NCBI RefSeq assembly: GCF_028200735.1
Contig: NZ_JAQKPV010000001.1
Location: forward strand, 372,001 to 436,000
Reading direction: 5' to 3'
DNA length: 64,000 bases
DNA from: Streptomyces sp. ACA25
GTDB taxonomy: Bacteria > Actinomycetota > Actinomycetes > Streptomycetales > Streptomycetaceae
Below, one piece after another: positions 28,166 to 55,684 of the stretch (position 1 is the first letter of the stretch; each line of letters begins with the position of its first letter). Below the pieces are notes generated by a model. It did no database searches. It worked only from the letters and a program-made list of their open reading frames with translations, and was not told where the DNA came from. The translations under genes and the position numbers were made by a program.

Positions 28166-29227
28166 TCAGCGGTCGAAGTCCAGCTCGACCTCGGGGGTCA
28201 AGGGACGCGACTGGCAGGCTAGTACGTAACCCGCGTCCAGTTCCTCCGGCTCGAGGGCGAAGTTGCGGTCCATCCGGACCTCGCCGCGCACCAGGCCTGC
28301 CCGGCAGGTGCCGCAGACGCCGCCCTTGCAGGCGTACGGCGCGTCGGAGCGGTTGCGGAGGACGGCCTCCAGCAGAGTCTCGCCCTCCGGCACCGGCCAG
28401 GTGCCCGACCGGCCGTCCAGGGTGGCGGTGACGGTGGCGTCGGTGGCGGCCGGCGTGAGGCGTTCCGGGGCGGGGGCCGGGGCGTCCTCGGCGTGGAACA
28501 GCTCGGTGTGGACGCGGTCCCGGGGAACACCGAGGTCGCGCAGCGCCTGCCGGGCGGCCTCGATCAGGCCCAGCGGGCCGCACAGGTACCAGCCCGCGAT
28601 GTCGCCGACCGGCAGCAGTGCGGGAAGGAGGGTGGTGAGCCGCGCGGTGTCGAGGCGGCCGGAGGACAGTCCGGCCTGCTGCTCCTCGCGGGACAGGGCG
28701 TGCAGCAGTTGCAGGCGGTCGGGGTAGCGGTCCTTGAGGTCGGCGAGCTCCTCCAGGAACATCGTGGACGCGGCGGAGCGGTCGCTGCGCAGCAGGGTGA
28801 AGCGGGATCGCGGCTCGGCCGCCAGTACGGTGGCGGCCATCGACAGCACCGGGGTGATGCCGCTGCCACCGACGAGGGCGGCGAACCGGCCCTCGCGCGG
28901 GGTGAGGGTGAACCGGCCGGTGGGCGGCATGACGTCCACCGTGTCGCCGACGGCGAGCTCCTTGAGGGCGTACGCGGAGAAGGTTCCGCCGTCGATGTGC
29001 CGCACGCCGACGGTCAGCTCGGCGGGGCCCTCGGGGTCGGTGGCCGGGGTGCAGATCGAGTAGTTGCGGCGCAGTTCGGTGCCGTCGCGGTCGTGGTGGC
29101 GGAACGTCAGGTGCTGGCCGGGGAGGAAGCGGAAGGCGGCGCGCAGCTCCGCCGGTACGGCGAAGCTGAGGGCGACCGCGTCGTCGGTGAGCCGGTCGAT
29201 CCGGGTCACCCGGAGCGGGTGGAACAT
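28166..29227 (-). CDS. paaE: Phenylacetyl-CoA epoxidase reductase subunit
   Basis: 353 residues. The N-terminal ferredoxin-NADP reductase module has RRNYSICTPA (flavin contact) and GGSGITPVLSM (NADPH). After about residue 260 comes a plant-type 2Fe-2S ferredoxin with CKGGVCGTCRAGL and a fourth cysteine in LACQSRPL. It passes electrons from NADPH to the di-iron oxygenase PaaA, which converts phenylacetyl-CoA to the 1,2-epoxide. The ATG directly abuts the paaD stop. It is the fifth gene of paaABCDE and its length is normal for PaaE. Confidence 0.95.
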   Translation of the reverse strand: MFHPLRVTRIDRLTDDAVALSFAVPAELRAAFRFLPGQHLTFRHHDRDGTELRRNYSICTPATDPEGPAELTVGVRHIDGGTFSAYALKELAVGDTVDVMPPTGRFTLTPREGRFAALVGGSGITPVLSMAATVLAAEPRSRFTLLRSDRSAASTMFLEELADLKDRYPDRLQLLHALSREEQQAGLSSGRLDTARLTTLLPALLPVGDIAGWYLCGPLGLIEAARQALRDLGVPRDRVHTELFHAEDAPAPAPERLTPAATDATVTATLDGRSGTWPVPEGETLLEAVLRNRSDAPYACKGGVCGTCRAGLVRGEVRMDRNFALEPEELDAGYVLACQSRPLTPEVELDFDR

Positions 29228-29857
29228 TCAGAGCTCCTTGACGTGGTCGAACGGTTCCCGGCAGCTCTCGCAGCGGCGCAGGGCCTTGCAGGCGGTGCCG
29301 GAGAACCTGCTCAGCAGGGTGGTGTCGGCGGAGCCGCACTGTGGGCAGCGGACGGGCTCGGCCGGGGCGTGGCGGGGTGGCCCGAGCTCCAGGGGGACCG
29401 GGCCGGCGGCGGTGGGCCGGCCGGTGGGCCGGGGCGGGGCGATGCCCGCTTCGGCGAGCTTGCGGCGGCCCTGCTCGGTGATGTCGTCGGTGCTCCAGGC
29501 AGGGCTGAGCACGGTACGGACCGTCACCTCGGCGACGCCGGCGGCGCGCAGCGCGCTCTCGATGTCGGTGGCCATCGTCTCGACGGCCGGGCAGCCGGTG
29601 TAGGTGGGGGTGAGGTCCACCTCGGCCACCTCGGCCACCTCGGCCGGACCGGCCACCTCGGACACCTGGTCCGTCCGGGGCGGGAGGAGGCGTACGTCCC
29701 GCAGGACGCCGAGGTCGGCGAGGCTGATGACCGGGAGCTCGGGGTCGGGGACGGCGCCGGCCACCTCCCGCAGTTCCGCTTCCCGGGCCGCCCGGGACGT
29801 CCGGGCGGTTCCCGGGGTCTGCGCGCCCGGCGGGCCGGGGTCGTCGGTGGTTCTCAC
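29228..29857 (-). CDS. paaD: Phenylacetyl-CoA epoxidase assembly protein
   Basis: 209 residues from GTG 29857, which overlaps the paaC stop. The core is a MIP18/DUF59 domain with VPDPELPVISLADLGVLRDV and TPTYTGCPAVETM. The C terminus is a zinc ribbon with CPQCGSADT and CESCREPFDHVKEL. PaaD is thought to help mature the iron-sulfur centre of PaaE. A short in-frame repeat encoding EVAEVAEV lies around 29615-29660, inside the beta-strand region; it is an insertion not expected in the family and may be a slippage product. Position between paaC and paaE supports the call. Confidence 0.93.
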   Translation of the reverse strand: MRTTDDPGPPGAQTPGTARTSRAAREAELREVAGAVPDPELPVISLADLGVLRDVRLLPPRTDQVSEVAGPAEVAEVAEVDLTPTYTGCPAVETMATDIESALRAAGVAEVTVRTVLSPAWSTDDITEQGRRKLAEAGIAPPRPTGRPTAAGPVPLELGPPRHAPAEPVRCPQCGSADTTLLSRFSGTACKALRRCESCREPFDHVKEL

Positions 29858-30591
29858 CAGGACGCTCCGGGGTGGCTGCGGTGCAGGTGCTGCATCTCTG
29901 CCAGCATCGGGCCGAAGGACTCGGTGTGGATGCCCTGGCGGCCCGCACCCGCGGTCCAGGCATCGGCGTCCGGGATGCCGTCGGGGACGGTGAGGGTGGC
30001 CCGGGTCAGCGTCTCGTTGATGCTGCCGAGCCAGTCGGTGCGCAGCCCGTCCCAGTCGAGTGACAGCCCTTCGACGGGAGAGAACAGCTCGCCGGTGAAG
30101 CGCCACAGGGCGTTGACGGCGTGCTGGGCGCGGTCGTGGCTCTCCTGGGTGCCGTCGCCCAGCCGGAGCGTCCAGTGGGTGGCGTGGTCGCGGTGGTAGG
30201 CGACCTCCTTGACCGCTTTGGCGGCCAGTTCGCGGAGGGGCTCGGGGCCGGTGCCGGGTCCGGCGGCCAGCGCGCCGAGGAGCAGTTCCTGGTAGGTGGA
30301 GAAGTACAGCTGGCGCACGATGGTGCGGGCGAAGTCGCCGTTCGGCTGCTCGACCAGCTGGACGTTGCGGAAGGCGCGTTCCTCGCGCAGGTATGCCAGC
30401 TCGTCCTCGTCGCCGGCCAGGGACAGCAGGACGCGGGCCTGGCCGAGGAGGTCGAGGGCGATGTTGGCCAGCGCGACCTCCTCCTCCAGGACCGGGGCGT
30501 GCCCGGCCCACTGGGCCAGCCGGTGCGAGAGCACCAGGGCGTCGTCGCCGAGCGTCAGGGCCGCGGACGGGGGGCTCACCGGTGCGCTCAC
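29854..30591 (-). CDS. paaC: Phenylacetyl-CoA epoxidase structural subunit
   Basis: 245 residues from GTG 30591, which overlaps the paaB stop (GTGA). It is a ferritin-like helical protein: LGDDALVLSHRLAQWAGHAP, EEEVALANIALDLLGQAR, FARTIVRQLYFSTYQELLL and VKEVAYHRDHATHWTLRLGDG, the last with part of a degenerate carboxylate set. PaaC pairs with PaaA as the non-catalytic partner of the (AC)2 core. Overlapping starts throughout paaA to paaE indicate a single translationally coupled operon. Confidence 0.95.
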   Translation of the reverse strand: MSAPVSPPSAALTLGDDALVLSHRLAQWAGHAPVLEEEVALANIALDLLGQARVLLSLAGDEDELAYLREERAFRNVQLVEQPNGDFARTIVRQLYFSTYQELLLGALAAGPGTGPEPLRELAAKAVKEVAYHRDHATHWTLRLGDGTQESHDRAQHAVNALWRFTGELFSPVEGLSLDWDGLRTDWLGSINETLTRATLTVPDGIPDADAWTAGAGRQGIHTESFGPMLAEMQHLHRSHPGASW

Positions 30592-30878
30592 AGGTGCCGC
30601 ACCCCTTCCGGGATCTCGTAGAAGGTGGGGTGCCGGTAGGGCTTGTCGCCGGCGGGCTCGAAGAAGGGGTCCTTCTCGTCGGGCGAGGAGGCGGTGATGG
30701 CGGTGGCCGGGACGACCCACAGGGAGATGCCCTCGGCGCGCCGGGTGTAGAGGTCGCGGGCGTTGCGCAGCGCCATCTCCGCGTCGGGGGCGTGCAGGCT
30801 CCCGGCGTGGGTGTGCGCCAGTCCGCGCCGGCTGCGGACGAAGACCTCCCACAGGGGCCAGTCCGGGGTGGTGGTCAT
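30588..30878 (-). CDS. paaB: Phenylacetyl-CoA epoxidase small subunit
   Basis: 96 residues. [20 protein letters not shown] and [12 protein letters not shown] are the PaaB signature, followed by ISLWVVPA and the C-terminal [16 protein letters not shown]. PaaB is a small structural subunit needed for the active epoxidase complex. The ATG overlaps the paaA stop (ATGA at 30878-30875). Length is typical. Confidence 0.95.
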
Positions 30879-31837
30879 GCTGCTGCCTCTTCTCGTCCGC
30901 TGTGCTTCGCGGCGTACGCGGCCGCTGCCTCGCGCACCCAGGCGCCGTTCTCGTGCGCCTGTCGGCGCCGGCTGATGCGCTGCTCGTTGCACGGGCCGTT
31001 GCCCTTCAGCACCTGCTGGAACTCGTTCCAGTCGATCGGGCCGAAGTCGTGGTGGCCGCGCTCCTCGTTCCAGCGCAGGTCGGGGTCCGGGAGGGTCAGT
31101 CCGAGCGACTCGGCCTGCGGGACGCAGATGTCGACGAAGCGCTGCCGCAGCTCGTCGTTCGAATGCCGCTTGATCTTCCAGGCCATGGACTGGGCCGAGT
31201 GGGCAGAGGCGTCGTCGGGCGGGCCGAACATCATGAGGGAGGGCCACCACCAGCGGTTCACGGCGTCCTGGGCCATCTCGTGCTGCGCCGCTGTGCCGCG
31301 GCTGAGGGCCAGCAGCGCCTCGTAGCCCTGGCGCTGGTGGAAGGACTCCTCCTTGCACACCCGGACCATGGCGCGGGCGTACGGGCCGTAGGAGCAGCGG
31401 CACAGCGGGACCTGGTTGGTGATGGCCGCGCCGTCCACCAGCCAGCCGATGGCACCGACGTCGGCCCAGGTCAGGGTGGGGTAGTTGAAGATGGAGGAGT
31501 ACTTCTGGCGGCCGGTGTGCAGCTTGTCGAGCAGCTCGTCGCGGCCGACGCCGAGGGTTTCGGCGGCGCTGTAGAGGTACAGCCCGTGCCCGGCCTCGTC
31601 CTGGACCTTGGCGATCAGGATGGCCTTGCGGCGCAGTGAGGGGGCGCGGGTGATCCAGTTCGCCTCCGGCTGCATGCCGATGATCTCGGAGTGCGCGTGC
31701 TGGGCGATCTGCCGGATCAGGGTGCTGCGGTAGGCGTCCGGCATCCAGTCCCGGGGTTCGATCCGCGCGTCGGCGGCCACCGTCCGTTCGAAATCGGCCG
31801 CACGTTGCTCTTCCTGCGGGTTGAGCACCGTCGTCAT
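30875..31837 (-). CDS. paaA: Phenylacetyl-CoA epoxidase catalytic di-iron subunit
   Basis: 320 residues. The di-iron ligands of PaaA are recognisable in [34 protein letters not shown] (E-x2-H) and [19 protein letters not shown] (second E-x2-H). [19 protein letters not shown] follows as in characterised PaaA. It uses O2 and electrons from PaaE to epoxidise ring-activated phenylacetyl-CoA. As the first gene of paaABCDE it follows a promoter with a consensus TTGACA box and the TetR operator at 31869-31882. No paaK ligase, paaG, paaJ or other lower-pathway gene lies nearby; only paaN is in the window. Confidence 0.96.
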
Positions 31838-31868
31838 CCCGAGCCCTGCCTCTCCACCGCCACTACCG

Positions 31869-31882
31869 ACCGATCGTTCGGT
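31869..31882. promoter_or_regulatory. PaaR-type operator 1 (paaABCDE)
   Basis: Near-palindrome ACCGATCGTTCGGT, the exact reverse complement of the operator upstream of paaN. It lies 32 nt before the paaA start, over the predicted transcription start that follows TTGACA (31915-31910) and CACCAT (31891-31886, 18-nt spacer) on the minus strand. The position fits repression. Confidence 0.8.
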
Positions 31883-31885
31883 TCA

Positions 31886-31915
31886 ATGGTGATCCCTGCC
31901 GCTGGAGCGTGTCAA
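31886..31915 (-). promoter_or_regulatory. paaA promoter
   Basis: Minus-strand TTGACA at 31915-31910, 18-nt spacer, CACCAT at 31891-31886. The -35 box is a perfect consensus; the -10 box is weak in its first base. The operator begins 3 nt further on. Confidence 0.6.
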
Positions 31916-31981
31916 GGGCAGGCCCGGACAGGTACCGTGCTCGGGTCACGACGAGAGCTGTTCCTGGGGGGACCGCCGAGC

Positions 31982-32686
31982 ATGCAGCCGATCGAACCGT
32001 CCGGAGATCCGGATCCCGCGCGCACGGCGTCCGCCCGGCTCGCTGCCCTGTCGGTCCCGGCGCGCCTGATCATCGCCCTGGCGGTGGGCGTGGTGACGGT
32101 GTTCACCGCCTGGCATCTGGCGGCCGTGTTCCTCTTCGTCGCACCGACGAACACGATCACCCAGGAGCACGGTCCGGCGATCCGTGGGTACGTCTACCCC
32201 GAGTTCGAGCAGAACTGGAAGCTGTTCGCTCCCAACCCGCTGCAGCGCAACGTCGCGGTGGAGGCGAGAGCCGAGATACGGACGGCGGACGGCTCCACGG
32301 AGATCACCGAGTGGATCGACCTGTCGGCGATGGACTTCGAGAACATCCGGCATCACCTCCTGCCCAGCCACACCGCACAGAACGAGCTGCGCCGGGCCTG
32401 GGACTTCTACACCAACTCGCACGACGACGACGGCGAGCCCACCGGGATGCGCGGTGAACTGTCCGAGCGGTACGTCCACCGGATAGCCCTGCTCCGGCTC
32501 AGTGAAGTGATGGACGTGCACGAGGCAACGCGCATCCAGCTCCGCTCGGCGAGCACCCGGGTCGCCCCGCCGCCCTGGAGCAACGAGGACATCGACACCA
32601 GCACCCACCACAGCGAGCTCGACTGGCGGACGGTCACCACCGCGGACCTGCCCGGCGGCGCCGCGGCCGGGCAGGGGGAGCGGTGA
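31982..32686 (+). CDS. DUF5819-family membrane-anchored protein
   Basis: 234 residues. One long hydrophobic segment (about residues 28-53, LIIALAVGVVTVFTAWHL and onward) is followed by a soluble domain with YPEFEQNWKLFAPNPLQRN, the hallmark of DUF5819, then acidic and Arg-rich helices. Topology is probably one N-terminal membrane anchor with the rest outside. GGGGGGA lies upstream of ATG 31982. The stop overlaps the HTTM gene start (GTGA at 32683). The two families are routinely neighbours and likely act as a pair, but no reaction is established. Confidence 0.8.
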   Translation: MQPIEPSGDPDPARTASARLAALSVPARLIIALAVGVVTVFTAWHLAAVFLFVAPTNTITQEHGPAIRGYVYPEFEQNWKLFAPNPLQRNVAVEARAEIRTADGSTEITEWIDLSAMDFENIRHHLLPSHTAQNELRRAWDFYTNSHDDDGEPTGMRGELSERYVHRIALLRLSEVMDVHEATRIQLRSASTRVAPPPWSNEDIDTSTHHSELDWRTVTTADLPGGAAAGQGER

Positions 32687-34122
32687 CCACCGCGGAACGG
32701 CCGGCGGGGCCGCCCACGCAGGCGGGCACCGAGCCGCCGAATCCCTTCGCCGGCCTGGGCCGGAAGTTCGACGCGGCCCTCGGCCGGGGCCTCGCCCACA
32801 TCACCGGGCGGGCACTGGGCCCCTACCAGACCGCGGTCGTCCGCATCGGGTTCGCGTTCACCTGGCTGTTCTTCCTGGTGCGGGAGATCCCGCACCGGCA
32901 CGAGCTGTACGGGCCGGACAGTCCGTGGGCCTGGGACATGGCCGAGCGGTTGCTGGCCGACAACAAGGCCTTCACGGTACTGATGTGGTCGGACTCCACG
33001 CTCTGGTTCGAGAGCGTCTACCTGCTGGCCATGGCCTCCTGCGTCGGGCTGCTGCTGGGGTGGCGCACCCGCTTCATGTCCGTGCTGTTCATGCTCGGAG
33101 TGCTGTCGCTGCAGAACCGCAGCGTGTTCATGGGGGACGGCGGGGACAACGTCATCCACCTGATGGCGATCTACCTGGTGCTCACCCGCTGCGGGCAGGT
33201 CTGGTCGCTGGACGCCCGCCGCCTGGCCCGGGCCGGACGTCATCCCGCCGATCCGGTGGGCATCGTGCTGTGGGTGCTCTCCGGCCTGGTACTGGCCCTG
33301 GGCACCGGCGCCGATCAGCTCGGCGGCTGGGTCTGGCTGCTGTGCCTGTGGGGCCTGTGGCTGGTGTACGGCCTGTGGTGGATGGTCGAGCGGTACGACG
33401 CGGGAGAGCCGCGGACCGTCCTCGACATCATGGGCAACCTGGCGCACAACGCGGCGCTGCTCGTGATCATGGTCGAGGTCTGCATCATCTACGCGACGGC
33501 CGGCTGGTACAAGATCCAGGGCTCGCGCTGGCAGGACGGCACCGCCGCCTACTACCCGATGAACCTCGACTACTTCACGCCGTTCCCGGAGATCTCGACG
33601 AAGCTGGCCGGCTTCGGGCTGCTGGTCATGCTGATGACCTACGGCACCGTGCTCGTCCAGGTCGCCTTCCCGTTCGCGCTGCTCAACCGCCGCGCGAAGA
33701 ACATCCTGCTGGCCATCATGATCGCGGAGCACCTGGGGATCGCGGTCCTGCTCGGGCTCCCCTTCTTCTCCCTGGCAATGATCGCCATGGACGTCGTGTT
33801 CCTGCCCACCGTGTTCCTGCTCTGGCTCGGCTCGCGCGTCCGGCGGCTGACCGATCCGGTGCGACGGCTGGGCCGAGGTGCCCGGCCGCGGGAGGGCGGC
33901 GCCCCGCCCGGCACCGCGAAGCCGGACGGGCCGGGGTCCGCGGGCGGGCCGGGCGGGCCGGAGGAGCCGGGCGGAACACCCGGCGGGGAGGCAGGAGGCG
34001 GCGGGTCCGGGGAGCCGGCGGCGGATCCCACGGCCGGTGCGGGCCCCACGGCGGATCCCGGGGTGGACCACACGACGGACTCCGCGCCCGGCACCCGCCC
34101 GACGTGGGCGCAGGCGCCGTGA
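32683..34122 (+). CDS. HTTM-domain membrane protein
   Basis: 479 residues. An N-terminal cytosolic stretch is followed by multiple membrane helices, with RIGFAFTWLFFLVREIPHR, LLLGWRTRFMSVLFM, FMGDGGDNVIHLMAIYLVL and YATAGWYKIQGSRWQDGTA. The last matches the SGWxKLxGxxWxxGxA core of HTTM proteins, which are related to vitamin K-dependent gamma-carboxylase. In this family a lysine and nearby His act as base; Lys is present in YKIQGS. Residues after about 385 form a Pro/Gly/Glu-rich tail with no fold. It is coupled to the DUF5819 gene. Substrate unknown. Confidence 0.85.
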   Translation: MTTAERPAGPPTQAGTEPPNPFAGLGRKFDAALGRGLAHITGRALGPYQTAVVRIGFAFTWLFFLVREIPHRHELYGPDSPWAWDMAERLLADNKAFTVLMWSDSTLWFESVYLLAMASCVGLLLGWRTRFMSVLFMLGVLSLQNRSVFMGDGGDNVIHLMAIYLVLTRCGQVWSLDARRLARAGRHPADPVGIVLWVLSGLVLALGTGADQLGGWVWLLCLWGLWLVYGLWWMVERYDAGEPRTVLDIMGNLAHNAALLVIMVEVCIIYATAGWYKIQGSRWQDGTAAYYPMNLDYFTPFPEISTKLAGFGLLVMLMTYGTVLVQVAFPFALLNRRAKNILLAIMIAEHLGIAVLLGLPFFSLAMIAMDVVFLPTVFLLWLGSRVRRLTDPVRRLGRGARPREGGAPPGTAKPDGPGSAGGPGGPEEPGGTPGGEAGGGGSGEPAADPTAGAGPTADPGVDHTTDSAPGTRPTWAQAP

Positions 34123-34243
34123 ACCGGCCGCCCGCGCGTCCGGGGCACCCGGCACGGCCGGCGTCGCGCCGCCGCACCGGCGGGTCCAAGCCGTAACGTC
34201 GCAGGAGCAGCCGCCGACCGGACAAGGAACGACACCACCACCG

Positions 34244-35029
34244 ATGACCGTCCCGCCCGCCCCCGCAGCCCTCTCCGGGCGCTGGCGGCAGCTCGCCGCC
34301 GACGCCGTACTGCTCGACGGCTTCCACGCGCTCAAGCACGCGCTGCGCTTCGGTGCCGAGGTGCCGCTGGCGGTCAGCACCGACAAGGACGCCACCCTGG
34401 TCCTCGCCCGGAAGCTGGCCCCCGACCTGACCACGGTGCTGGAAGGGCTGCTCACGGAGGTACCGGCCGCCGGCCTGGCCGCTCTGGTGCCCCGCCCGCA
34501 CCCCACGGGGGTGGCGGCCCTGGCCGTCCGGCCGCCCGTGCTGCCGGGCAGGGCCGACAGCCCGGCCGGTGCTTCCCGCACAGCGCCGCTGGTGGTGCTC
34601 GACGACCCCCGCCATCTGGGCAACATCGGCGCGGTGGTCCGGGTCGCGGCGGGCTGCGGGGCGTCCGGGGTCCTCACCACGGGGACCGTTGATCCCTGGC
34701 ACCCCGCAGTCCTCCGGGCCGCCGCCGGCCTGCACTTCGCCACCGTCGTGGACCGCTGTTCCGTCGCCGAACTGCCTCCGGGGCCGCTGTACGCGCTGGA
34801 CCCGGAGGGCACGGACCTGCGCGGCCTGACCCTGGAGGACGACGCGCTCCTCGCCTTCGGCTCCGAGCGCCACGGCCTCTCCGCCGAGCTGCGTGCCAGG
34901 GCCACCACTCTGGTGTCCCTGCCGATGCGCCCGCAGGTTTCCAGTTACAACCTTGCCACCAGCGTCGCCATGACCCTCTACCACTGGCTGGCCGGCCGGC
35001 CCCCGGCCGGTGTTCCGCCCGCAGGGTGA
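34244..35029 (+). CDS. SpoU/TrmH-family RNA 2'-O-methyltransferase
   Basis: 261 residues. The N-terminal part has the substrate-binding pattern LLDGFHALKHALRFGAEVPLAV. The C-terminal SPOUT knot has VVLDDPRHLGNIGAVVRVAAGCGASGV (motif 1, shown here in part), LLAFGSERHGLS (motif 2) and SLPMRPQVSSYNLATSVAM (motif 3, AdoMet loop). It should methylate a ribose in tRNA or rRNA; the target nucleotide cannot be deduced. ATG 34244 is chosen because upstream in-frame sequence has no start with a ribosome site close by; AAGGAA lies at a loose 14 nt. The stop codon falls inside a 17-bp tandem repeat. Confidence 0.85.
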   Translation: MTVPPAPAALSGRWRQLAADAVLLDGFHALKHALRFGAEVPLAVSTDKDATLVLARKLAPDLTTVLEGLLTEVPAAGLAALVPRPHPTGVAALAVRPPVLPGRADSPAGASRTAPLVVLDDPRHLGNIGAVVRVAAGCGASGVLTTGTVDPWHPAVLRAAAGLHFATVVDRCSVAELPPGPLYALDPEGTDLRGLTLEDDALLAFGSERHGLSAELRARATTLVSLPMRPQVSSYNLATSVAMTLYHWLAGRPPAGVPPAG

Positions 35030-35071
35030 ACCGCCCCGCAGGGTGAACCGCCCCGCAGGGTGAACCGCTCG
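35021..35071 (+). repeat. Three tandem 17-bp repeats at the methyltransferase 3' end
   Basis: Unit GCAGGGTGAACCGCCCC begins at 35021, 35038 and 35055; the third copy ends CGCTCG instead. The first copy includes the methyltransferase TGA, so each copy carries the same stop. It is probably a slippage product. Confidence 0.85.
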
Positions 35072-35104
35072 CGGGGTGCACCCGCTGTGCCACCTCCCAG
35101 GTCA

Positions 35105-35140
35105 GGGCCGGGCACGTTTCACGTGGAACGTGCCCGGCCC
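35105..35140. terminator. Convergent terminator hairpin
   Basis: 14-bp perfect stem (35105-35118 with 35127-35140) and an 8-nt loop that itself contains CACGTG. It lies between the methyltransferase and paaN, which converge. Confidence 0.8.
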
Positions 35141-35172
35141 GACCTGGTCCCGCTCAGTGGTCCGCGGCCTGC

Positions 35173-36867
35173 TCAGCGGACCTCGCGGCGGATCTCCACG
35201 GTGCGGAAGCGGTTCGCCACAAACGCGCCGTCGACCAGGGCGGCGTTGGCCGCCGGGTTGCCGCCGGAGCCGTGGAAGTCGGAGAACGCCGAGGTCTGGT
35301 TGACGTACACCCCGCCGGTGAGGTTCAGCGAGAGCTGCGCGCACTCGTCCAGGCAGGCGTCCGACAGCGCCTGCTCCACCTCGGCGGAGGTGGTGTATCC
35401 GCCGACGGTCATGGCGCCCTGCTCGCGGACGGTGCTGCGCAGCAAGGACACCGCCTCGGCGGTGGAGTCCACGGCCACCGCGAAGGACACCGGGCCGAAG
35501 CACTCGGCGCGGCAGGTCCGGGCCGCCTCCGGGTCCGCGCTGTCCAGCGCGATGACAACCGGGGTGCGGACGGTGGCCTCGGGGAACTCGGGGTGCTCGA
35601 CGGGGCGGGAGGCCAGCGCCACCCGGCCCAGCCCGGGGGCACCGTCGAGGCGCTCGCGTACCTGGGGGCTGACGAGTGCGCCGAGCAGGGCGGTCGCCCG
35701 GGCGTCGTCACCGAGCAGTTTGTCCACGGCGGCGGCCAGGTCCGCGACCAGCTCGTCGTAGCTCTTGTGGCCGTCGTCCGTGGCGACGCCGCCGCGAGGG
35801 ATGAGCAGGTTCTGCGGGGTCGTGCACATCTGGCCGCTGTACAGCGAGAGCGAGAAGGCCAGGTTGGCGAGCATGCCGCGGTAGTTGTCGGTGGAGTCGA
35901 TGACGACGGTGTTGACGCCGGCCTTCTCCGTGTACACCTGCGCCTGCCGCGCGTGGGTCTCCAGCCAGTCCCCGAACGCGGTGGAGCCGGTGTAGTCGAT
36001 GATGCGGATCTCCGGGCGCAGCGCCAGGTCCTTGGCGATGCCCTCGCCGTCCCGCTCGGCGGCCAGCGCGACCAGGTTCGGGTCGAAGCCCGCCTCGGCG
36101 AGCACCTCGCGGGCGACCCGCACGGTCAGGGCAAGCGGCAGCACGGCGCGCGGGTGCGGCTTGACGAGCACGGGGTTGCCGGTGGCCAGCGAGGCGAAGA
36201 GGCCCGGGTAGCCGTTCCAGGTGGGGAAGGTGTTGCAGCCGATGAGCAGCGAGATGCCGCGCGGCACCGCGGTGAACTCCTTCGCCAGCTCCAGCGGGTC
36301 CCGCTTGCCCTGCGGCTTGCTCCACCGGGCGCGCTGCGGGGTCCGGACCTGCTCGGCGTAGGCGTAGGTGACCGCCTCCAGGCCGCGGTCCTGCGCGTGC
36401 GGGCCACCTGCCTGCATCGCCATCAGGTACGCCTGCCCCGAGGTGTGCATGACGGCGTGCGCGAACTCGTGCGTGCGGGCGTTGATCCGGGAGAGGATCT
36501 CCAGGCACACCAGGGCCCGGGTCTCGGGGCCGGCGTCCCGCCAGGCGGGCATCGCCTCGCGCATCGCGGGCAGCAGCACCTCGGGGTCCGGGTGCGGATA
36601 GGTGACGCCGAGCGGGAAGCCGTACGGTGAGACCTCGCCGCCCGTCCGGCCGTCGGTGCCCGGCTGGTCCAGCTCGAACGGGGTGTCGCGGAGCGCGTCG
36701 AACGCGGCCCGGCCGGCGCCGGCGTCGAGTGTGCCGTTCTCCCCGTAGGCCTTGGGATGCTCCGGGTACGGGGACCAGTAGGCTCGGCTCCGGATGGTCT
36801 CCAGCGCCGTGTCCAGCGTGTCACGGTGCTTCTCCGTCAGGTGCGCCACGGTGAGCGAAGGGGTCAT
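35173..36867 (-). CDS. paaN: PaaN-type aldehyde dehydrogenase
   Basis: 564 residues from ATG 36867, with GAGGAG nine bases upstream. It is an aldehyde-dehydrogenase-fold enzyme with VPRGISLLIGCNTFPTWNGY, NPVLVKPHPRAVLPL (the cofactor-binding lysine region), DYTGSTAFGDWLE, the catalytic cysteine in LYSGQMCTTPQNLLIP and AECFGPVSFAV near the end. This fits the PaaN family of actinobacteria. It lacks the C-terminal hydratase domain of E. coli PaaZ. It probably oxidises the ring-opened aldehyde of the phenylacetate pathway. It is divergent from the TetR gene, with an operator over its promoter. Confidence 0.88.
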   Translation of the reverse strand: MTPSLTVAHLTEKHRDTLDTALETIRSRAYWSPYPEHPKAYGENGTLDAGAGRAAFDALRDTPFELDQPGTDGRTGGEVSPYGFPLGVTYPHPDPEVLLPAMREAMPAWRDAGPETRALVCLEILSRINARTHEFAHAVMHTSGQAYLMAMQAGGPHAQDRGLEAVTYAYAEQVRTPQRARWSKPQGKRDPLELAKEFTAVPRGISLLIGCNTFPTWNGYPGLFASLATGNPVLVKPHPRAVLPLALTVRVAREVLAEAGFDPNLVALAAERDGEGIAKDLALRPEIRIIDYTGSTAFGDWLETHARQAQVYTEKAGVNTVVIDSTDNYRGMLANLAFSLSLYSGQMCTTPQNLLIPRGGVATDDGHKSYDELVADLAAAVDKLLGDDARATALLGALVSPQVRERLDGAPGLGRVALASRPVEHPEFPEATVRTPVVIALDSADPEAARTCRAECFGPVSFAVAVDSTAEAVSLLRSTVREQGAMTVGGYTTSAEVEQALSDACLDECAQLSLNLTGGVYVNQTSAFSDFHGSGGNPAANAALVDGAFVANRFRTVEIRREVR

Positions 36868-36922
36868 GGCCGGCGATCTCCTCGTTGAGCTGGAATTCGG
36901 GCGGGGCATGGACGATACTGCT

Positions 36923-36936
36923 ACCGAACGATCGGT
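36923..36936. promoter_or_regulatory. PaaR-type operator 2 (paaN / tetR)
   Basis: ACCGAACGATCGGT. With its flank, ACCGAACGATCGGTCGG is identical over 17 bases to the minus strand at the paaA operator. It lies between TTGCCC (36944-36939) and CAGTAT (18-nt spacer) of a plausible minus-strand paaN promoter, so bound repressor would block polymerase. Confidence 0.8.
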
Positions 36937-37063
36937 CGGGGCAAGGGGGGCCGGCCACGGGGCCGGTTTCCTCCGAGTGCTTCCCGCCCTCCGGGCGCCG
37001 CACAGCCGGCCGTCACCGCGCCCTTCCCGCAGGGGCGTCCCGATCAAGGATGGTGTCTCCCCC

Positions 37064-37666
37064 GTGACCACGGCGGCGAAGCGCGACACATACACCCCGC
37101 AGACGCTCCTCGCGGTGGCCGTCGAGGTGTTCAACGAGCGCGGCTACGACGGCACCTCCATGGAGCACCTGTCCAAGGCAGCCGGTATCTCCAAGTCCTC
37201 CATCTATCACCACGTCCGTGGCAAGGAGGAGCTGCTGCGCCGCTCCGTCAGTCATGCCCTGGACGGGCTCTTCGCCGTCCTGGAGGAGCCTGCCGCCCGC
37301 GAGGGCCGGGCCGTGGACCGCCTGGAGCACGTCACGCGGCGCACCGCGCTGGTCCTGATGGAGCGGCTGCCCTACGTCACCCTGCTGCTGCGGGTGCGCG
37401 GCAACACCGACGCCGAGCGGTGGGCGCTGGAGCGGCGGCGCGAGTTCGACCAGCGGGTCGCCGAGCTGCTCCGGCAGGCCGTGGCGGAGGGTGACCTGCG
37501 GGCCGACATCGATGTCCGGCTGGCGACCCGGCTGCTGTTCGGGATGATCAACTCGATCGCCGAGTGGTACCGGCCGCAACGCCGGGACACGGCGGCGGCC
37601 GAGGACGTCGCCGAGGCCGTGGTCCGCACGGCCTTCGCCGGCCTGCGGCTGCCGCCCACGAGCTGA
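37064..37666 (+). CDS. paaR: TetR-family regulator of phenylacetate genes
   Basis: 200 residues from GTG 37064. The N-terminal DNA-binding domain is standard TetR: LAVAVEVFNERGYDGTSMEHL then AAGISKSSIYHHVRGKEELL. The C-terminal ligand domain is helical, with RLPYVTLLLRVRGNTDAERW and TRLLFGMINSIAEWYRP. Close actinobacterial relatives (PaaR) repress paa genes and release DNA on binding phenylacetyl-CoA. It is divergent from paaN, with one operator in the 196-bp gap; two further copies sit at paaA and at the first bkd operon. Autoregulation is likely. Confidence 0.82.
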   Translation: MTTAAKRDTYTPQTLLAVAVEVFNERGYDGTSMEHLSKAAGISKSSIYHHVRGKEELLRRSVSHALDGLFAVLEEPAAREGRAVDRLEHVTRRTALVLMERLPYVTLLLRVRGNTDAERWALERRREFDQRVAELLRQAVAEGDLRADIDVRLATRLLFGMINSIAEWYRPQRRDTAAAEDVAEAVVRTAFAGLRLPPTS

Positions 37667-37676
37667 GGCCCGTTCC

Positions 37677-37712
37677 GCGCTCCCGTCCCGTTCGGCGCTC
37701 CCGTCCCGATCG
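37677..37712 (+). repeat. Two 18-bp direct repeats
   Basis: GCGCTCCCGTCCCGTTCG (37677-37694) is repeated with one change (37695-37712) in the gap between the convergent TetR and Lrp genes. No hairpin was seen. Confidence 0.7.
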
Positions 37713-37765
37713 GCGTCGGCTGCGGGGACCGGGCCGGGCGCCGGAGGTCACTTCCGGTGCGCCGG

Positions 37766-38260
37766 TCAGCCGGGTTCGCCGCCGGGCAGCAGATCGGTCT
37801 CCTCGAACACCAGCAGGGTCCGGGTGCTGAGCACCTCGGGGATCGCCTGCAGCCGGGTGAGGACCAGCTCGCGCAGCGCCCGGTTGTCCGCCGTGTGCAC
37901 CAGCAGCAGCACATCGAAGTCCCCGCTGACCAGGGCGATGTGCGCCGCCCCGGGAAGCTGTTCGAGCTTCGCGCGGACCGTGCGCCAGGTGTCCTGGACG
38001 ATCTTCAGGGTGATGTAGGCCGAGGCCCCCTGCCCGGCCCGCTCATGGTCCACCCGGGCGCTGAAGCCGCGGATCACCCCGTCCTCCAGCAGCCGGTTGA
38101 TCCGGCCGTAGGCGTTGGCGCGGGAGATGTGCACCTGCTCGGCGACCGAGCGCACGGACGCCCTTCCGTCGAGTCTGAGCAGACGGACGATCGCGGTGTC
38201 AATGGAATCGAGAGGTCGCACCGGCGAGTGCGCGGGTGTGGTCATCTGGTCGTCCGGCAC
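37766..38260 (-). CDS. Lrp/AsnC-family regulator of the bkd operon
   Basis: 164 residues from GTG 38260, supported by GAGGGGAGG nine bases upstream; ATG 38245 is the alternative. The helix-turn-helix is LDSIDTAIVRLLRLDGRASV with VRSVAEQVHISRANAYGRI. The C-terminal RAM domain has AYITLKIVQDTWRTVRAKL and GDFDVLLLVHT. Lrp-type BkdR proteins control branched-chain ketoacid dehydrogenase genes in several bacteria and sense branched-chain amino acids. It is divergent from the first bkd operon across 184 bp that also hold a PaaR-type operator. Confidence 0.85.
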   Translation of the reverse strand: MPDDQMTTPAHSPVRPLDSIDTAIVRLLRLDGRASVRSVAEQVHISRANAYGRINRLLEDGVIRGFSARVDHERAGQGASAYITLKIVQDTWRTVRAKLEQLPGAAHIALVSGDFDVLLLVHTADNRALRELVLTRLQAIPEVLSTRTLLVFEETDLLPGGEPG

Positions 38261-38318
38261 GGTGTGCGGCCTCCCCTCTCTGGACGTTCTGCATTCATGA
38301 CACGGCACCCTCGGCCAG

Positions 38319-38348
38319 TTGTCCAGATGCTCACCCCAGCTGTAGCCA
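38319..38348 (+). promoter_or_regulatory. Candidate bkd operon promoter
   Basis: TTGTCC (38319-38324), 18-nt spacer, TAGCCA (38343-38348). The predicted start site near 38355 lies just before the operator at 38362-38375. The boxes are imperfect, so this is tentative. Confidence 0.45.
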
Positions 38349-38361
38349 AACTGCGTCGGCG

Positions 38362-38375
38362 ACCGAACAATCGGT
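38362..38375. promoter_or_regulatory. PaaR-type operator 3 (bkd operon)
   Basis: ACCGAACAATCGGT differs from operator 2 at one base. It lies 69 nt upstream of the bkdA start and 101 nt upstream of the Lrp gene start, just downstream of the predicted bkd transcription start. Confidence 0.75.
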
Positions 38376-38444
38376 AGGCAGAGGGCTGGGTCACCCATGC
38401 TCAGCCCTGCCCCGCCCGCAGCCCCCTATCAGGAGGTGCTCGCC

Positions 38445-39590
38445 ATGTCGGTGCTGGAGCAGACCCCAGACCGCGAGACCACCGGGACCCGCCCCGCACC
38501 GCCCCCCTGGCAGCCGCGCACGGACCCCGGTCCGCTGCTGCCCGACCCCGAGCCCTACCGGCTGCTCGGCAGCAGGACCCGGCTGGACCCGGCCGCCAAG
38601 GAGCTGTGGCTGGAGCTGTACCGCCGGCTGGTCCTCGGCCGCCGCTACAACCAGCAGGCCACGGCCCTCACCAAGCAGGGCCGGCTCGCCGTGTACCCCT
38701 CCTCCACCGGCCAGGAGGCCTGCCAGGTCGCCGCCGCGATGGCCCTGGAGGAACGCGACTGGCTCTTCCCCAGCTACCGCGACACCCTCGCCGCCGTCAG
38801 CCGCGGCCTCGACCCGGTCCAGGCCCTCACCCTGCTGCGCGGCGACTGGCACACCGGCTACGACCCGCGCGAGCACCGCATCGCCCCGCTGAGCACCCCG
38901 CTCGCCACCCAGCTGCCGCACGCCGTCGGCCTCGCCCACGCCGCCAGGCTCCTCGGTGACGACGTGGTCGCGATGGCCCTGGTGGGCGACGGCGGCACCT
39001 CCGAGGGCGACTTCCACGAGGCGCTGAACTTCGCCGCCGTCCAGCAGGCGCCCGTGGTCTTCCTGGTCCAGAACAACGGCTTCGCGATCTCCGTGCCGCT
39101 CGCCAAGCAGACCGCCGCTCCGAGCATCGCCCACAAGGCGGTCGGCTACGGCATGCCCGGCCGCCTGGTCGACGGCAACGACGCCCCCGCCGTGCACCAG
39201 GTCCTCTCCGAGGCGGTGCACCGCGCCCGGAACGGAGGCGGCCCCACCCTGGTGGAGGCCATCACCTACCGCATCGACGCGCACACCAACGCCGACGACG
39301 CCACCCGGTACCGGCCGGGCGAGGAGGTCGAGGCATGGCGGGCCCACGACCCGGTCGTGCTCCTGGAGCGCGAGCTCCGGCAACGCCGGCAGCTCACCGA
39401 CCGCGGCGCCCGGCAGGCCGCTGACGCGGCCGAGGAGATGGCGGCCGGCCTGCGGGCCCGGATGAACGCGGACCCGCAGCTCGCACCGGACGACCTGTTC
39501 GCCCACGTGTACGCCGGGCCCACCCCGCAACTGCGCGAACAGGCAGCCCTGCTGCGCGCCGAACTCACCGCCGAGGAGGACGCCGTATGA
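38445..39590 (+). CDS. bkdA: Branched-chain 2-oxoacid dehydrogenase E1 alpha (cluster 1)
   Basis: 381 residues from ATG 38445, with AGGAGGT eight bases upstream. It is the thiamine-diphosphate-binding half of E1: GRRYNQQATALTKQGRLAVY, PSSTGQEACQVAAAMAL, FPSYRDTLAAVSRGLD, the ThDP motif LVGDGGTSEGDFHEALNFAA ending at QNNGFAISVP, and EAITYRIDAHTNADD, the loop that carries phosphorylation sites in mammals. With E1 beta and E2 it decarboxylates keto acids of Val, Leu and Ile to acyl-CoA, which in streptomycetes also prime branched fatty acids and some polyketides. The stop overlaps the next start (ATGA). Confidence 0.93.
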   Translation: MSVLEQTPDRETTGTRPAPPPWQPRTDPGPLLPDPEPYRLLGSRTRLDPAAKELWLELYRRLVLGRRYNQQATALTKQGRLAVYPSSTGQEACQVAAAMALEERDWLFPSYRDTLAAVSRGLDPVQALTLLRGDWHTGYDPREHRIAPLSTPLATQLPHAVGLAHAARLLGDDVVAMALVGDGGTSEGDFHEALNFAAVQQAPVVFLVQNNGFAISVPLAKQTAAPSIAHKAVGYGMPGRLVDGNDAPAVHQVLSEAVHRARNGGGPTLVEAITYRIDAHTNADDATRYRPGEEVEAWRAHDPVVLLERELRQRRQLTDRGARQAADAAEEMAAGLRARMNADPQLAPDDLFAHVYAGPTPQLREQAALLRAELTAEEDAV

Positions 39591-40684
39591 CCACCGTCAC
39601 GGCAGGCCGCGCTGCCGGAACGACCACGTCCGCCGCAGCGCCCGGAACCACCGGGGCGGACGCCGCGCCGGGCCCCGGCAGACCCGCGGCCAAGCCCGCG
39701 ACCATGGCCCAGGCACTGAACCGGGCCCTGCGCGACGCGATGGCCGAAGACCCCGCCGTGCACGTCATGGGCGAGGACGTGGGCGCCCTCGGCGGCGTCT
39801 TCCGGATCACCGACGGGCTGGCCGCGGAGTTCGGCGAGGACCGCTGCGCGGACACCCCGCTGGCCGAGGCCGGCATTCTCGGCACGGCGGTGGGCATGGC
39901 GATGTACGGGCTGCGGCCGGTCGTCGAGATGCAGTTCGACGCCTTCGCCTACCCGGCCTTCGAACAGCTGATCTCGCACGTCTCCCGGATGCGGAACCGC
40001 ACCCGGGGGGCGCTGCCGATGCCGATCACCCTCCGCATCCCCTACGGCGGCGGGATCGGCGGAGTCGAGCACCACAGCGACTCCTCCGAGGCCTACTACA
40101 TGGCCACCCCCGGCCTGCACGTCGTCACCCCGGCGACCGTCGGGGACGCCTACGGGCTGCTGCGGCAGTCCATCGCCTCCGACGACCCGGTCGTCTTCCT
40201 GGAGCCCAAACGGCTGTACTGGGCGAAGGACGCCGTGGACCTGGAAGCCCCGCCGCACAGCGAGCCGTTCGGCCGGGCGGTGGTGCGGCGCCCCGGCACC
40301 TCGGCGACCCTGATCACCTACGGCCCCTCGCTGCCGGTCTGCCTGGAGGCCGCGGAGGCCGCCCGGGAGGACGGCCTCGACCTGGAGGTCATCGACCTGC
40401 GCACCCTGGTCCCCTTCGACGACGAGACGGTCTGTGCGGCGGTGCGCCGCACCGGGCGGGCCGTGGTCGTGCACGAGGCCACCGGCTTCGCCGGCCCGGG
40501 CGCGGAGATCGCCGCCCGCCTCACCGAGCGCTGCTTCCACCACCTGCACGCCCCGGTGCTGCGGGTGGCCGGCTTCGACATCCCCTATCCGCCGCCGATG
40601 CTGGAGAAGCATCACCTGCCCGGCGTCGACCGGATCCTCGACGCGGTGGACCGCCTGCAGTGGGAAAGCGAGTGGACGGCATGA
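39587..40684 (+). CDS. bkdB: Branched-chain 2-oxoacid dehydrogenase E1 beta (cluster 1)
   Basis: 365 residues. After an Ala/Gly/Pro-rich extension of about 38 residues it shows TMAQALNRALRDAMAEDP, VMGEDVGALGGVFRITDGL (the Glu that activates ThDP), DTPLAEAGILGTAVGMAM, IPYGGGIGGVEHHSDSSEAY and EATGFAGPGAEIAARLTERC. The N-terminal extension is about 40 residues longer than the E1 beta of cluster 2, whose start aligns with TMAQAL; an internal start is therefore possible, but the ATGA overlap with bkdA favours 39587. The stop overlaps the E2 start. Confidence 0.93.
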   Translation: MTTVTAGRAAGTTTSAAAPGTTGADAAPGPGRPAAKPATMAQALNRALRDAMAEDPAVHVMGEDVGALGGVFRITDGLAAEFGEDRCADTPLAEAGILGTAVGMAMYGLRPVVEMQFDAFAYPAFEQLISHVSRMRNRTRGALPMPITLRIPYGGGIGGVEHHSDSSEAYYMATPGLHVVTPATVGDAYGLLRQSIASDDPVVFLEPKRLYWAKDAVDLEAPPHSEPFGRAVVRRPGTSATLITYGPSLPVCLEAAEAAREDGLDLEVIDLRTLVPFDDETVCAAVRRTGRAVVVHEATGFAGPGAEIAARLTERCFHHLHAPVLRVAGFDIPYPPPMLEKHHLPGVDRILDAVDRLQWESEWTA

Positions 40685-42012
40685 CCGAAGTACGCGAGTT
40701 CGCCCTGCCGGACCTCGGGGAAGGACTGACCGGGGCCGAGATCGTCCGGTGGCTCGTCGAGGTCGGGGACGTCGTCGTCGTGGACCAGCCGGTCGTCGAG
40801 GTGGAAACGGCGAAGGCCCAGGTCGAGGTGCCCTGCCCGTACGGCGGTGTGGTCACCGCCCGCCACGGCGAGACCGGCGAGGAGGTGCCCGTCGGGTCGA
40901 CCCTGGTCACCGTCGCCGCAGAGGGGGCCGCCTCCGGGCCTGCGCCCTCCGGCACCGCCGACGGGACGCCGGGCGCCGGCCGCCCGGCCCAGCCGTCCCC
41001 CTCGGAGAAACCGGCCGCCGGAGCGGCCGACGAGGGCTCGGGCAACGTCCTGGTCGGCTACGGCACAAGCGCTGCCTCCGGGCGCCGCCGCCGCCGTACC
41101 CGTCCGCCCGGCGGGCCGACCGTGCACCCCGCACCCACCGGGCCGCGCCGGGTGGCCGTGATCTCCCCGCTCGTGCGGCGGATCGCCCGCGAGCAGGGCA
41201 TCAACCTGACCGACCTGCGCGGCTCCGGCCCCGACGGCCTCATCCTGCGGGCGGACGTCGAACGGGCCGCCCGCCCGGCGCCCGCACCGAACGCTCCGCC
41301 CGCCGCGGTGCCGCCGGTCGCCGGAGAGCAGCGCATCCCGCTGCGCGGCATCGCCGGAGCGATGGCCGAGAAGCTGTCCCGGAGCCGGACCGAGATCCCC
41401 GACGCCACCTGCTGGGTGGACGCCGACGCCACCGAGCTGCTGGCCGCCCGTCGTGCGATGAACACGGCCGGCGCCCCCAAGGTGTCGCTGCTCGCCCTCC
41501 TGGCGCGCATCTGCACCGCCGCACTGGCCCGGCACCCCGAGCTCAACGCCACGGTCGACACCCGGGCGCGGGAGATCGTCCGGCTGCCCGCCGTGCACCT
41601 CGGGTTCGCCGCGCAGACCGCGCGCGGCCTGATGGTGCCCGTGGTGCGCGACGCACAGCGCCGCAGCGCCACCGGGCTGACCGAGGAGATGACCCGGCTC
41701 ACCGAGGCCGCCAGGGCCGGCAAGCTGCCGCCCGGCGACCTGACCGGCGGCACCTTCACCCTCAACAACTACGGGGTGTTCGGCGTCGACGGCTCGACCC
41801 CGATCATCAACCACCCCGAGGCCGCCATGCTGGGCGTCGGCCGCATCATCGAGAAGCCCTGGGCGCACCAGGGACAGATCGCGCTCCGGCACGTCGTCCA
41901 GCTGTCCCTGACCTTCGACCACCGGGTCTGCGACGGTGGCGTGGCCGGCGGCTTCCTCCGGTACGTCGCAGACTGCGTCGAACAGCCCGCTCTCCTCCTC
42001 CGCGAGCTGTGA
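40681..42012 (+). CDS. bkdC: Branched-chain 2-oxoacid dehydrogenase E2 (cluster 1)
   Basis: 443-residue dihydrolipoyl acyltransferase. Residues 1-80 form one lipoyl domain with the lipoylated lysine in VEVETAKAQVEVP. A Pro/Ala/Gly linker is followed by a peripheral-subunit-binding domain (VISPLVRRIAREQGINLTDL) and the catalytic domain, which contains NNYGVFGVDGSTPIINHPEA and the active-site LTFDHRVCDGG with its His and Asp. No E3 gene is present in the window, so a shared dihydrolipoamide dehydrogenase elsewhere must complete the complex. It is the last gene of the coupled bkdABC unit. Confidence 0.93.
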   Translation: MTEVREFALPDLGEGLTGAEIVRWLVEVGDVVVVDQPVVEVETAKAQVEVPCPYGGVVTARHGETGEEVPVGSTLVTVAAEGAASGPAPSGTADGTPGAGRPAQPSPSEKPAAGAADEGSGNVLVGYGTSAASGRRRRRTRPPGGPTVHPAPTGPRRVAVISPLVRRIAREQGINLTDLRGSGPDGLILRADVERAARPAPAPNAPPAAVPPVAGEQRIPLRGIAGAMAEKLSRSRTEIPDATCWVDADATELLAARRAMNTAGAPKVSLLALLARICTAALARHPELNATVDTRAREIVRLPAVHLGFAAQTARGLMVPVVRDAQRRSATGLTEEMTRLTEAARAGKLPPGDLTGGTFTLNNYGVFGVDGSTPIINHPEAAMLGVGRIIEKPWAHQGQIALRHVVQLSLTFDHRVCDGGVAGGFLRYVADCVEQPALLLREL

Positions 42013-54679: not shown

Positions 54680-54702
54680 TGTCACGACTCTCCTCAGCCT
54701 TC

Positions 54703-55683
54703 TCAGTACGCCAGCGCACGGTCGACGCTGTCCAGCACCCGGTCGAGACCGGGGAGGTACTCCTCCTCCAGCCGGGCCGGCGGGTAGGGGGCGTGGAAAC
54801 CGCCCACCCGCAGCACCGGTGCCTCCAGATGGTAGAAGCACCGCTCGGTGATGCGGGCGGCAACCTCCGCACCGGACCCGAAGAACACCGGGGCCTCGTG
54901 CACGATGACGAGCCGGCCGGTCTTCTCCACCGACTGCTGCACGGTGTCGAAGTCGATCGGGGAGATCGACCGCAGGTCGACGACCTCCAGCGAACGGCCC
55001 TCCTCGGCGGACGTGGCGGCGACCTGCAGGCAGGTCTTCACGGTCGGTCCGTAACAGGCCAGCGTGAGGTCGGTGCCCTCCTGCAGGACCCGGGCCCCGT
55101 GCAGCGGGAACGGGAGGGCGGAGGTGTCGACCTCGCCCTTGTCCCAGTACCGGGACTTCGGCTCGAAGAAGATCACCGGGTCGTCGCACTCGATGGCCTG
55201 CTGGAGCATCCAGTAGGCGTCCGAGGGAGTCGCGGGTGAGACGATCTTCAGGCCGGCCACGTGCGCGAAGAGGGCCTCGGGGGACTCGCTGTGGTGTTCC
55301 ACCGCCCCGATGCCGCCGGCGTAGGGGATGCGGATGACGACCGGCAGCCTGACCTTGCCCAGCGACCGGGCGTGCATCTTGGCCAGCTGGGTGACGATCT
55401 GGTCGTAACCGGGAAAGACGAAGCCGTCGAACTGGATCTCCGCGACCGGCCGGTAACCGCGCAGGGCCAGACCGATCGCGGTGCCGATGATGCCGGACTC
55501 GGCGAGCGGGGTGTCGATGACCCGTTCCTCGCCGAAGTCCTTCTGCAGCCCGTCGGTGATCCGGAAGACGCCGCCGAGCTTGCCGACGTCCTCTCCCATG
55601 ATCAGAACCTTGGGGTCGGACTCCAGAGCCTTCCGCAGGGAGGTGTTCAAGGCCTTGGCGATGGACATCTTCTGGGCACTCAT
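54703..55683 (-). CDS. bkdB: Branched-chain 2-oxoacid dehydrogenase E1 beta (cluster 2)
   Basis: 326 residues, the standard E1 beta length with no N-terminal extension. It contains MSIAKALNTSLRKALESDPK, IMGEDVGKLGGVFRITDGL with the ThDP-activating Glu, DTPLAESGIIGTAIGLALRG, IPYAGGIGAVEHHSESPEAL and EAPVFFGSGAEVAARITERC. The start lies one base after the E1 alpha stop. It forms the heterotetrameric E1 with the gene upstream. Residue-level agreement with cluster 1 E1 beta is high across all motifs, so the clusters are probably partly redundant. Confidence 0.94.
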   Translation of the reverse strand: MSAQKMSIAKALNTSLRKALESDPKVLIMGEDVGKLGGVFRITDGLQKDFGEERVIDTPLAESGIIGTAIGLALRGYRPVAEIQFDGFVFPGYDQIVTQLAKMHARSLGKVRLPVVIRIPYAGGIGAVEHHSESPEALFAHVAGLKIVSPATPSDAYWMLQQAIECDDPVIFFEPKSRYWDKGEVDTSALPFPLHGARVLQEGTDLTLACYGPTVKTCLQVAATSAEEGRSLEVVDLRSISPIDFDTVQQSVEKTGRLVIVHEAPVFFGSGAEVAARITERCFYHLEAPVLRVGGFHAPYPPARLEEEYLPGLDRVLDSVDRALAY

Positions 55684-55684
55684 G

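Follow-up and report, generated by a model that had tools for sequence, protein, structure and literature searches.

Organization of the paa–bkd locus

The window, a stretch of 64,000 nucleotides on contig NZ_JAQKPV010000001.1 of Streptomyces sp. ACA25, carries genes of phenylacetate breakdown (paa), the gene of a TetR-family repressor, paaR, and an operon for a 2-oxo acid dehydrogenase, bkdABC. A near-palindromic motif of 14 bp, the subject of this analysis, lies upstream of paaA, between paaN and paaR, and upstream of bkdA, and is predicted to be an operator of PaaR. The features on which this assignment draws are, in window coordinates:

30875–31837, minus strand: paaA (TIGR02156, 522.9 bits, cut-off 280)
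31865–31882, core 31869–31882: predicted PaaR operator at paaA (motif scan)
35173–36867, minus strand: paaN (TIGR02288, 941.6 bits, cut-off 578.75)
36923–36940, core 36923–36936: predicted PaaR operator between paaN and paaR (motif scan)
37064–37666, plus strand: paaR, TetR-family repressor gene (TetR models; structure match to 2IAI)
37766–38245, minus strand: bkdR, Lrp/AsnC-type regulator gene (Lrp models below cut-off; named by position and S. coelicolor SCO3832)
38362–38375: predicted PaaR operator before bkdABC, ACCGAACAATCGGT (motif scan and conservation)
38397–39590, plus strand: bkdA, 2-oxo acid dehydrogenase E1 alpha (family scan, structure match, tree)
39587–40684, plus strand: bkdB, E1 beta (family scan)
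40672–42012, plus strand: bkdC, E2 acyltransferase (family scan, from 40660)

The operator motif in the window and in the genome

In agreement with the first-pass annotation, which had placed a near-palindrome at paaA, at paaN/tetR and at the first bkd operon, the pattern ACCGAnCrnTCGGT matches exactly at 31869–31882, 36923–36936 and 38362–38375. The sites at paaA (minus strand) and paaN/paaR (plus strand) are, as it had also stated, identical over 17 bases, ACCGAACGATCGGTCGG, and the bkd site differs from both at one base. When up to 2 mismatches are allowed, 38 matches are counted in the window, palindromic hits counting on both strands; shuffled sequences average 17.1, and none of 100 shuffles reaches 38.

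Many copies at unrelated genes, to be looked for by a genome scan, had been named as the result that would speak against a shared operator. A scan of the whole genome (5.43 Mb) finds the exact pattern at only 5 places (7 hits counted by strand; none for the reversed control), and it is not spread over unrelated genes. The fourth place, on a different contig (L020), lies ~42 bp before the start codon, judged by eye, of a 3-hydroxyacyl-CoA (coenzyme A) dehydrogenase gene that is paaH-like, with 38% identity to a PaaH. The fifth, ACCGACCAGTCGGT, is of a different class and precedes an oxidoreductase gene that we take to be curA-like (L006, about 1501–1515). The looser pattern ACCGNNCRNNCGGT gives 207 strand-wise hits in the genome, so that the specificity is carried by the inner letters.

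Both paa sites are well kept among same-genus relatives: the core at paaA shows 0 mismatches in all 25 that have paaA in the locus, and the site between paaN and paaR shows none in 34 of 35, with 2 in the remaining genome (G022). The genome scan, together with the count across the genus given below, rules out chance or base composition as the origin of the motif.

Assignment of the regulator

Twenty models of TetR-type regulators match the TetR protein, all of them below their own cut-offs, and its closest solved chain is 2IAI (SCO3833; E 2.3e-83). This gene number adjoins SCO3832, which the source consulted gives as bkdR of S. coelicolor; SCO3833 is probably the PaaR of that species. Of 295 Streptomyces genomes, 289 contain a match to PaaR at E≤1e-40. 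The protein is of TetR type, its gene stands among paa genes, and an inverted-repeat operator, recognized from sequence only, is found at the paa promoters including its own; judged by this context and operator, the protein encoded at 37064–37666 is PaaR.

PaaR of S. pristinaespiralis, likewise of the TetR type, suppresses the paa genes there, and its putative site, AACGA-N4-TCGGT, is similar (Zhao 2015, via the review PMC10933834); the review's account of it names no bkd target. For Burkholderia cenocepacia a validated operator, ACCGACCGGTCGGTT, is reported, with phenylacetyl-CoA as the inducer (PMC9493321), and in Thermus thermophilus a gene for a phenylacetyl-CoA ligase rises in the absence of PaaR (PMC9493321, PMC6651687). 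Both resemble the present system in combining a TetR repressor with an inverted repeat at paa promoters, but no bkd operon is among the targets that the passages on PaaR name (PMC9493321, PMC6651687), and the Thermus consensus as quoted, CNAACGNNCGTTNG, differs from the operator described here. As PaaR has been published with a putative operator in S. pristinaespiralis and a validated one in B. cenocepacia, the sites at paaA and at paaN/paaR are ordinary PaaR sites. The control of paa genes by PaaR is thus already published, and the membership of bkdABC in the regulon is what is new here.

Position of the operators relative to promoter boxes

The following putative promoter boxes were read by eye:

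31910–31915, minus strand: -35-like TTGACA of paaA
31886–31891, minus strand: -10-like CACCAT of paaA (18 nt spacer, 3 nt before the operator)
38319–38324, plus strand: -35-like TTGTCC of bkdA, conserved (in alignment rows chosen for holding the operator)
38343–38348, plus strand: -10-like TAGCCA of bkdA, inside the conserved TGTAGCCAAA (18 nt after TTGTCC, 13 nt before the operator)

For paaR only a -10-like GATACT, 3 nt before the operator, was seen by eye. A sigma-70 scan confined to the bkd region returned no promoter. The proposal that all three sites lie over or next to promoter boxes therefore fits paaA best and is loose for paaR and bkdA. On these by-eye boxes, PaaR would bind one class of operator that closely follows the -10 boxes at paaABCDE, paaN/paaR and bkdABC, and the bkd site would stand where a repressor blocks the start of transcription. 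The conservation profiles of the bkd upstream region were built from rows selected because they contain the exact site, and are therefore informative on the flanks and not on the site itself.

Conservation of the site before bkdABC

The 14-mer ACCGAACAATCGGT occurs exactly in 288 of 295 Streptomyces genomes, nearly always once, while its reversed control occurs in 1 of the 295. Among the 35 same-genus relatives whose loci were read, 34 have it unchanged before bkdA and the last (G010) shows a run of N, an assembly gap. The seven genomes lacking the exact 14-mer comprise this one, a genome with one changed base (G256) and five without a close bkdA (G001, G061, G145, G180 and G295; best match ≤63%). 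In 80 named Streptomyces loci, 68 fetched stretches contain the exact site and 12 do not, 5 of the latter being on loci cut short. That the bkd site is a chance match without function, for which only the shortness of the motif speaks, is hence extremely unlikely: about 0.014 copies of the 14-mer are expected per 8.5 Mb genome (72% G+C assumed), and the observed 288 genomes stand against a single control hit. The operator at the bkdABC promoter is conserved beyond chance.

The site may alternatively be bound by BkdR, or by some other TetR protein, and merely resemble the PaaR site. It adjoins bkdR, and its one-base difference from the paa sites is itself kept in the 288 genomes. On the other hand, 13 of its 14 bases match the paa sites, and it persists where no bkdR was detected beside bkdA: in G113, in which bkdA lies ~15 kb from paaR, and in G040, G045 and G047, which belong to other genera of the order. 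These last three carry the site as ACCGAACCTTCGGT on one strand; before bkdA it is also found outside the genus in G037 (identical) and in G044 (weak). A second near-palindrome, CTGTGGA...TCCACAG (CTGTGGA...AACCGTTTGTCCACAG), lies upstream of bkdA at 38260–38335 and is kept in most relatives read, its left half being degraded in ACA25 and in G113. It appears to be a better candidate for the BkdR box than the 14-mer. We consider it improbable that the bkd site belongs to BkdR or another TetR protein, and the 14-mer as a BkdR operator is unlikely since the site is kept in genomes without an adjacent bkdR.

One operator shared by the paa and bkd promoters, as first suggested for this window, is thus borne out by a bkd site that is near-invariant in Streptomyces, is kept when the operon lies away from paaR, and belongs to a motif that is not scattered. 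From these sequence comparisons, PaaR very probably controls bkdABC.

The predicted regulon across 24 genomes

In 24 genomes the pattern ACCGAWCRWTCGGT (AW-type sites) was found at 89 places, its reversed control at 2. The loci were read to assign the sites, except that the paaK sites of G015 and G034 were placed by coordinates and two in G226 solely by how far they lie from paaR; genes in the relatives were called with a simple codon-usage caller, which may miss genes or misplace starts. On this basis, 87 of the 89 sites stand at paaA, paaN/paaH–paaR, bkdA or paaK. The other two lie in G013 (L192, G013:C1:9157114) and G019 (L203, G019:C1:7875368), the second inside a predicted open reading frame. 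A bkdA-type site is present in all 24 genomes, before bkdA in 23 and in G226 placed by distance only.

A paaK site is found in 17 of the 24 genomes, mostly as ACCGATCATTCGGT, the form that stands at the paaH-like gene of ACA25; in L198 it overlaps the called start. The paaH-like and paaK sites fall outside the window or the genome, beyond the view of the first-pass annotation. In those 17 genomes the operator pairs bkdA with paaK, the other gene for forming phenylacetyl-CoA. In L082 and L115, the two that were read by family scan, a 3-hydroxyacyl-CoA dehydrogenase gene separates paaN from paaR. Taken together, the predicted members of the regulon would be makers and users of phenylacetyl-CoA or its products, and bkdABC is the only one that had not so far been classed with phenylacetate genes.

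This company bears on the meaning of the shared operator, which had been described as linking phenylacetate and branched-chain acid oxidation. The shared control is supported, while the reason for it may have been misnamed, as both the content of the regulon and the clusters of bkdABC with paa genes point to phenylacetyl-CoA.

Links of bkdABC to phenylacetate genes

In two Streptomyces genomes without a PaaR match (G061 and G180; L175 and L176), bkdA, bkdB, bkdC, a paaG-like gene, paaA, paaB and paaC follow each other in one direction; in G295 this run is fragmentary. In L176, the gene ahead of the run encodes an MmyB-like ligand-binding domain. G316 and G554 (L217, L218) have a cluster in which bkdABC is accompanied by paaABCDE and by genes for a HisC-like aminotransferase, two PaaN-like proteins and a PaaH-like protein; paaE is cut off in G554, and only in G316 was a thiolase identified. 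No PaaK match was found in the stretches read, and the cluster looks like a self-contained phenylalanine route. In G539 and G514, bkdABC stands beside paa genes and PaaK. Outside Streptomyces, PaaA (E≤1e-60) and a BkdA1-type protein (E≤1e-100) are encoded within 30 kb of each other in 5 of the 48 genomes that have both, against 0.55 expected, without correction for phylogeny; the same holds for presence and absence across the class. In a tree of 24 chosen rows, BkdA1-type sequences, the paa-linked copies among them, are set apart from bkdF with full support. The NCBIfam names of the bkd proteins are pyruvate dehydrogenase-like.

The distribution of PaaK adds to this picture. No PaaK match at E≤1e-60 was found in ACA25 or in 29 others of the 295 genomes; ACA25 has paaABCDE, paaN, paaR and bkdABC all the same. 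In G145 there is no match to PaaA, PaaR or a BkdA1-type protein. The company of paaK in the regulon, the gene order, losses such as that in G145 and the genome of ACA25 without PaaK all point to BkdABC as a former of phenylacetyl-CoA.

A precedent for such a reaction is PglB/PglC of L-phenylglycine biosynthesis in S. pristinaespiralis, a pyruvate dehydrogenase-like pair suggested, in the account consulted, to make phenylacetyl-CoA from phenylpyruvate (PMC7089894); unlike bkdABC, its genes sit in a biosynthetic cluster, and the likeness to BkdABC is one of description and gene context only.

A possible substrate for BkdABC

We slightly favour an explanation in which PaaR represses paaABCDE, paaN/paaR and bkdABC, and BkdABC makes phenylacetyl-CoA from phenylpyruvate; in our reading, bkdABC would be repressed by PaaR because of this very reaction. 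Binding of PaaR, repression of all three units, and release by phenylacetyl-CoA are expected by analogy with PaaR proteins elsewhere. BkdABC would decarboxylate phenylpyruvate oxidatively, directly to phenylacetyl-CoA, and so give a route from phenylalanine that dispenses with the PaaK ligase, while the operator-free bkdFGH would be the ordinary branched-chain enzyme. Whether BkdABC makes phenylacetyl-CoA is, taken by itself, evenly balanced in our judgement. Our confidence is equally divided on the wider proposal that bkdABC encodes an aromatic 2-oxo acid dehydrogenase (phenylpyruvate to phenylacetyl-CoA) that belongs to the PaaR regulon throughout the genus and is the main entry to the pathway in species without PaaK.

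The same operator evidence would be seen if PaaR repressed bkdABC while the enzyme mainly used branched-chain 2-oxo acids, the operator then coordinating two routes, for example by sparing CoA or by signalling a plenty of amino acids. In the parts of the literature consulted, the adjacent bkdR is tied to control of the branched-chain dehydrogenase and the operon is treated as a branched-chain one. The closest solved chains to the E1 alpha subunit are pyruvate and branched-chain enzymes, and the enzyme type occurs without a PaaA match in family f20 (below). Against this stand the other regulon members, which produce or consume phenylacetyl-CoA or compounds derived from it, the runs and clusters that bkdABC forms with paa genes elsewhere, and the separate operon bkdFGH at 53255–56857. 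Upstream of the latter, no match to the motif with ≤2 mismatches was found in the stretch from 56330 to the window end, and an operator there was rejected. A mainly branched-chain role for BkdABC under PaaR is possible, though we regard it as doubtful.

Several further observations, like the view of the operon in the literature, weigh against the formation of phenylacetyl-CoA by BkdABC under PaaR. A PaaK match at E≤1e-60 is present in 265 of the 295 Streptomyces genomes (255 above cut-off), so that in most of the genus phenylacetyl-CoA could be formed independently of BkdABC. BkdA1-type genes (best match 57–71%, E≤1e-100) occur in 19 genomes of family f20, none of which is among the 136 PaaA-positive genomes; the enzyme type is therefore not dedicated to phenylacetate, and the idea of BkdA1 as a gene dedicated to paa is weakened. 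G029 has PaaK and no exact site at paaK. No site within one mismatch was found at the bkdA loci read in genus g3 (L178–L181, L189), nor at the bkd genes linked to paa in G539, G514, G336, G316, G554, G061 and G180. The loss of the bkd site tracks that of PaaR (Fisher P 7e-9), which we set aside as independent support in view of the status of bkdA and of incomplete genomes. Among genomes without PaaR, G061, G180 and G295 have a diverged bkdA (61–63%) and G145 and G001 no close one, while the assemblies of G001 and G222 are 79 and 81% complete. The site is thus missing mainly because a close bkdABC is absent or replaced there, and the coincidence is not independent evidence.

Other features and related reports

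The remaining genes of the paa operon and the gene that follows it are:

30588–30878, minus strand: paaB (TIGR02157, above cut-off)
29854–30579, minus strand: paaC (TIGR02158, above cut-off)
29228–29857, minus strand: paaD (TIGR02159, above cut-off)
28166–29227, minus strand: paaE (TIGR02160, 416.3 bits, just below the cut-off of 420.8)
26900–28138, minus strand: class I/II aminotransferase gene, 27 bp after paaE

The aminotransferase gene probably belongs to the same operon; no homolog after paaE was seen in L086, L087, L088 and L225. At the fifth genomic place of the motif, two small predicted proteins (L006, 287–484 and 956–1138) with a common VLATPAA stretch near the end adjoin the oxidoreductase gene and are possible peptide precursors.

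Control of the branched-chain dehydrogenase by a phenylacetate repressor had been thought undescribed, and the literature searched, mostly by title and with few subscription journals, contains no report of a bkd operator or of PaaR control of bkd. A synteny paper from 2026 describes, in the part consulted, paaN as syntenic with bkdA1/A2 and suggests a linkage (PMC13118837). PccD of Saccharopolyspora erythraea is also a TetR-type regulator, reported to control a branched-chain dehydrogenase operon directly; the source, as far as consulted, compares it with AccR and not with a phenylacetate regulator, and it is likened to PaaR here by description only (PMC8176718).

Implications

Streptomyces has two bkd operons, and enzymes of this kind yield products that serve as starter units for antibiotics and branched fatty acids. 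The operator at bkdABC suggests that an enzyme thought to be a branched-chain one feeds the breakdown of aromatic amino acids. Should bkdABC be under PaaR control and supply phenylacetyl-CoA, the operon would be annotated and used in strain engineering differently, a route from phenylalanine to phenylacetyl-CoA that bypasses PaaK would be explained, and the purpose of the second Bkd complex would become directly testable. The near-invariant operator offers a clean set of probes for PaaR.

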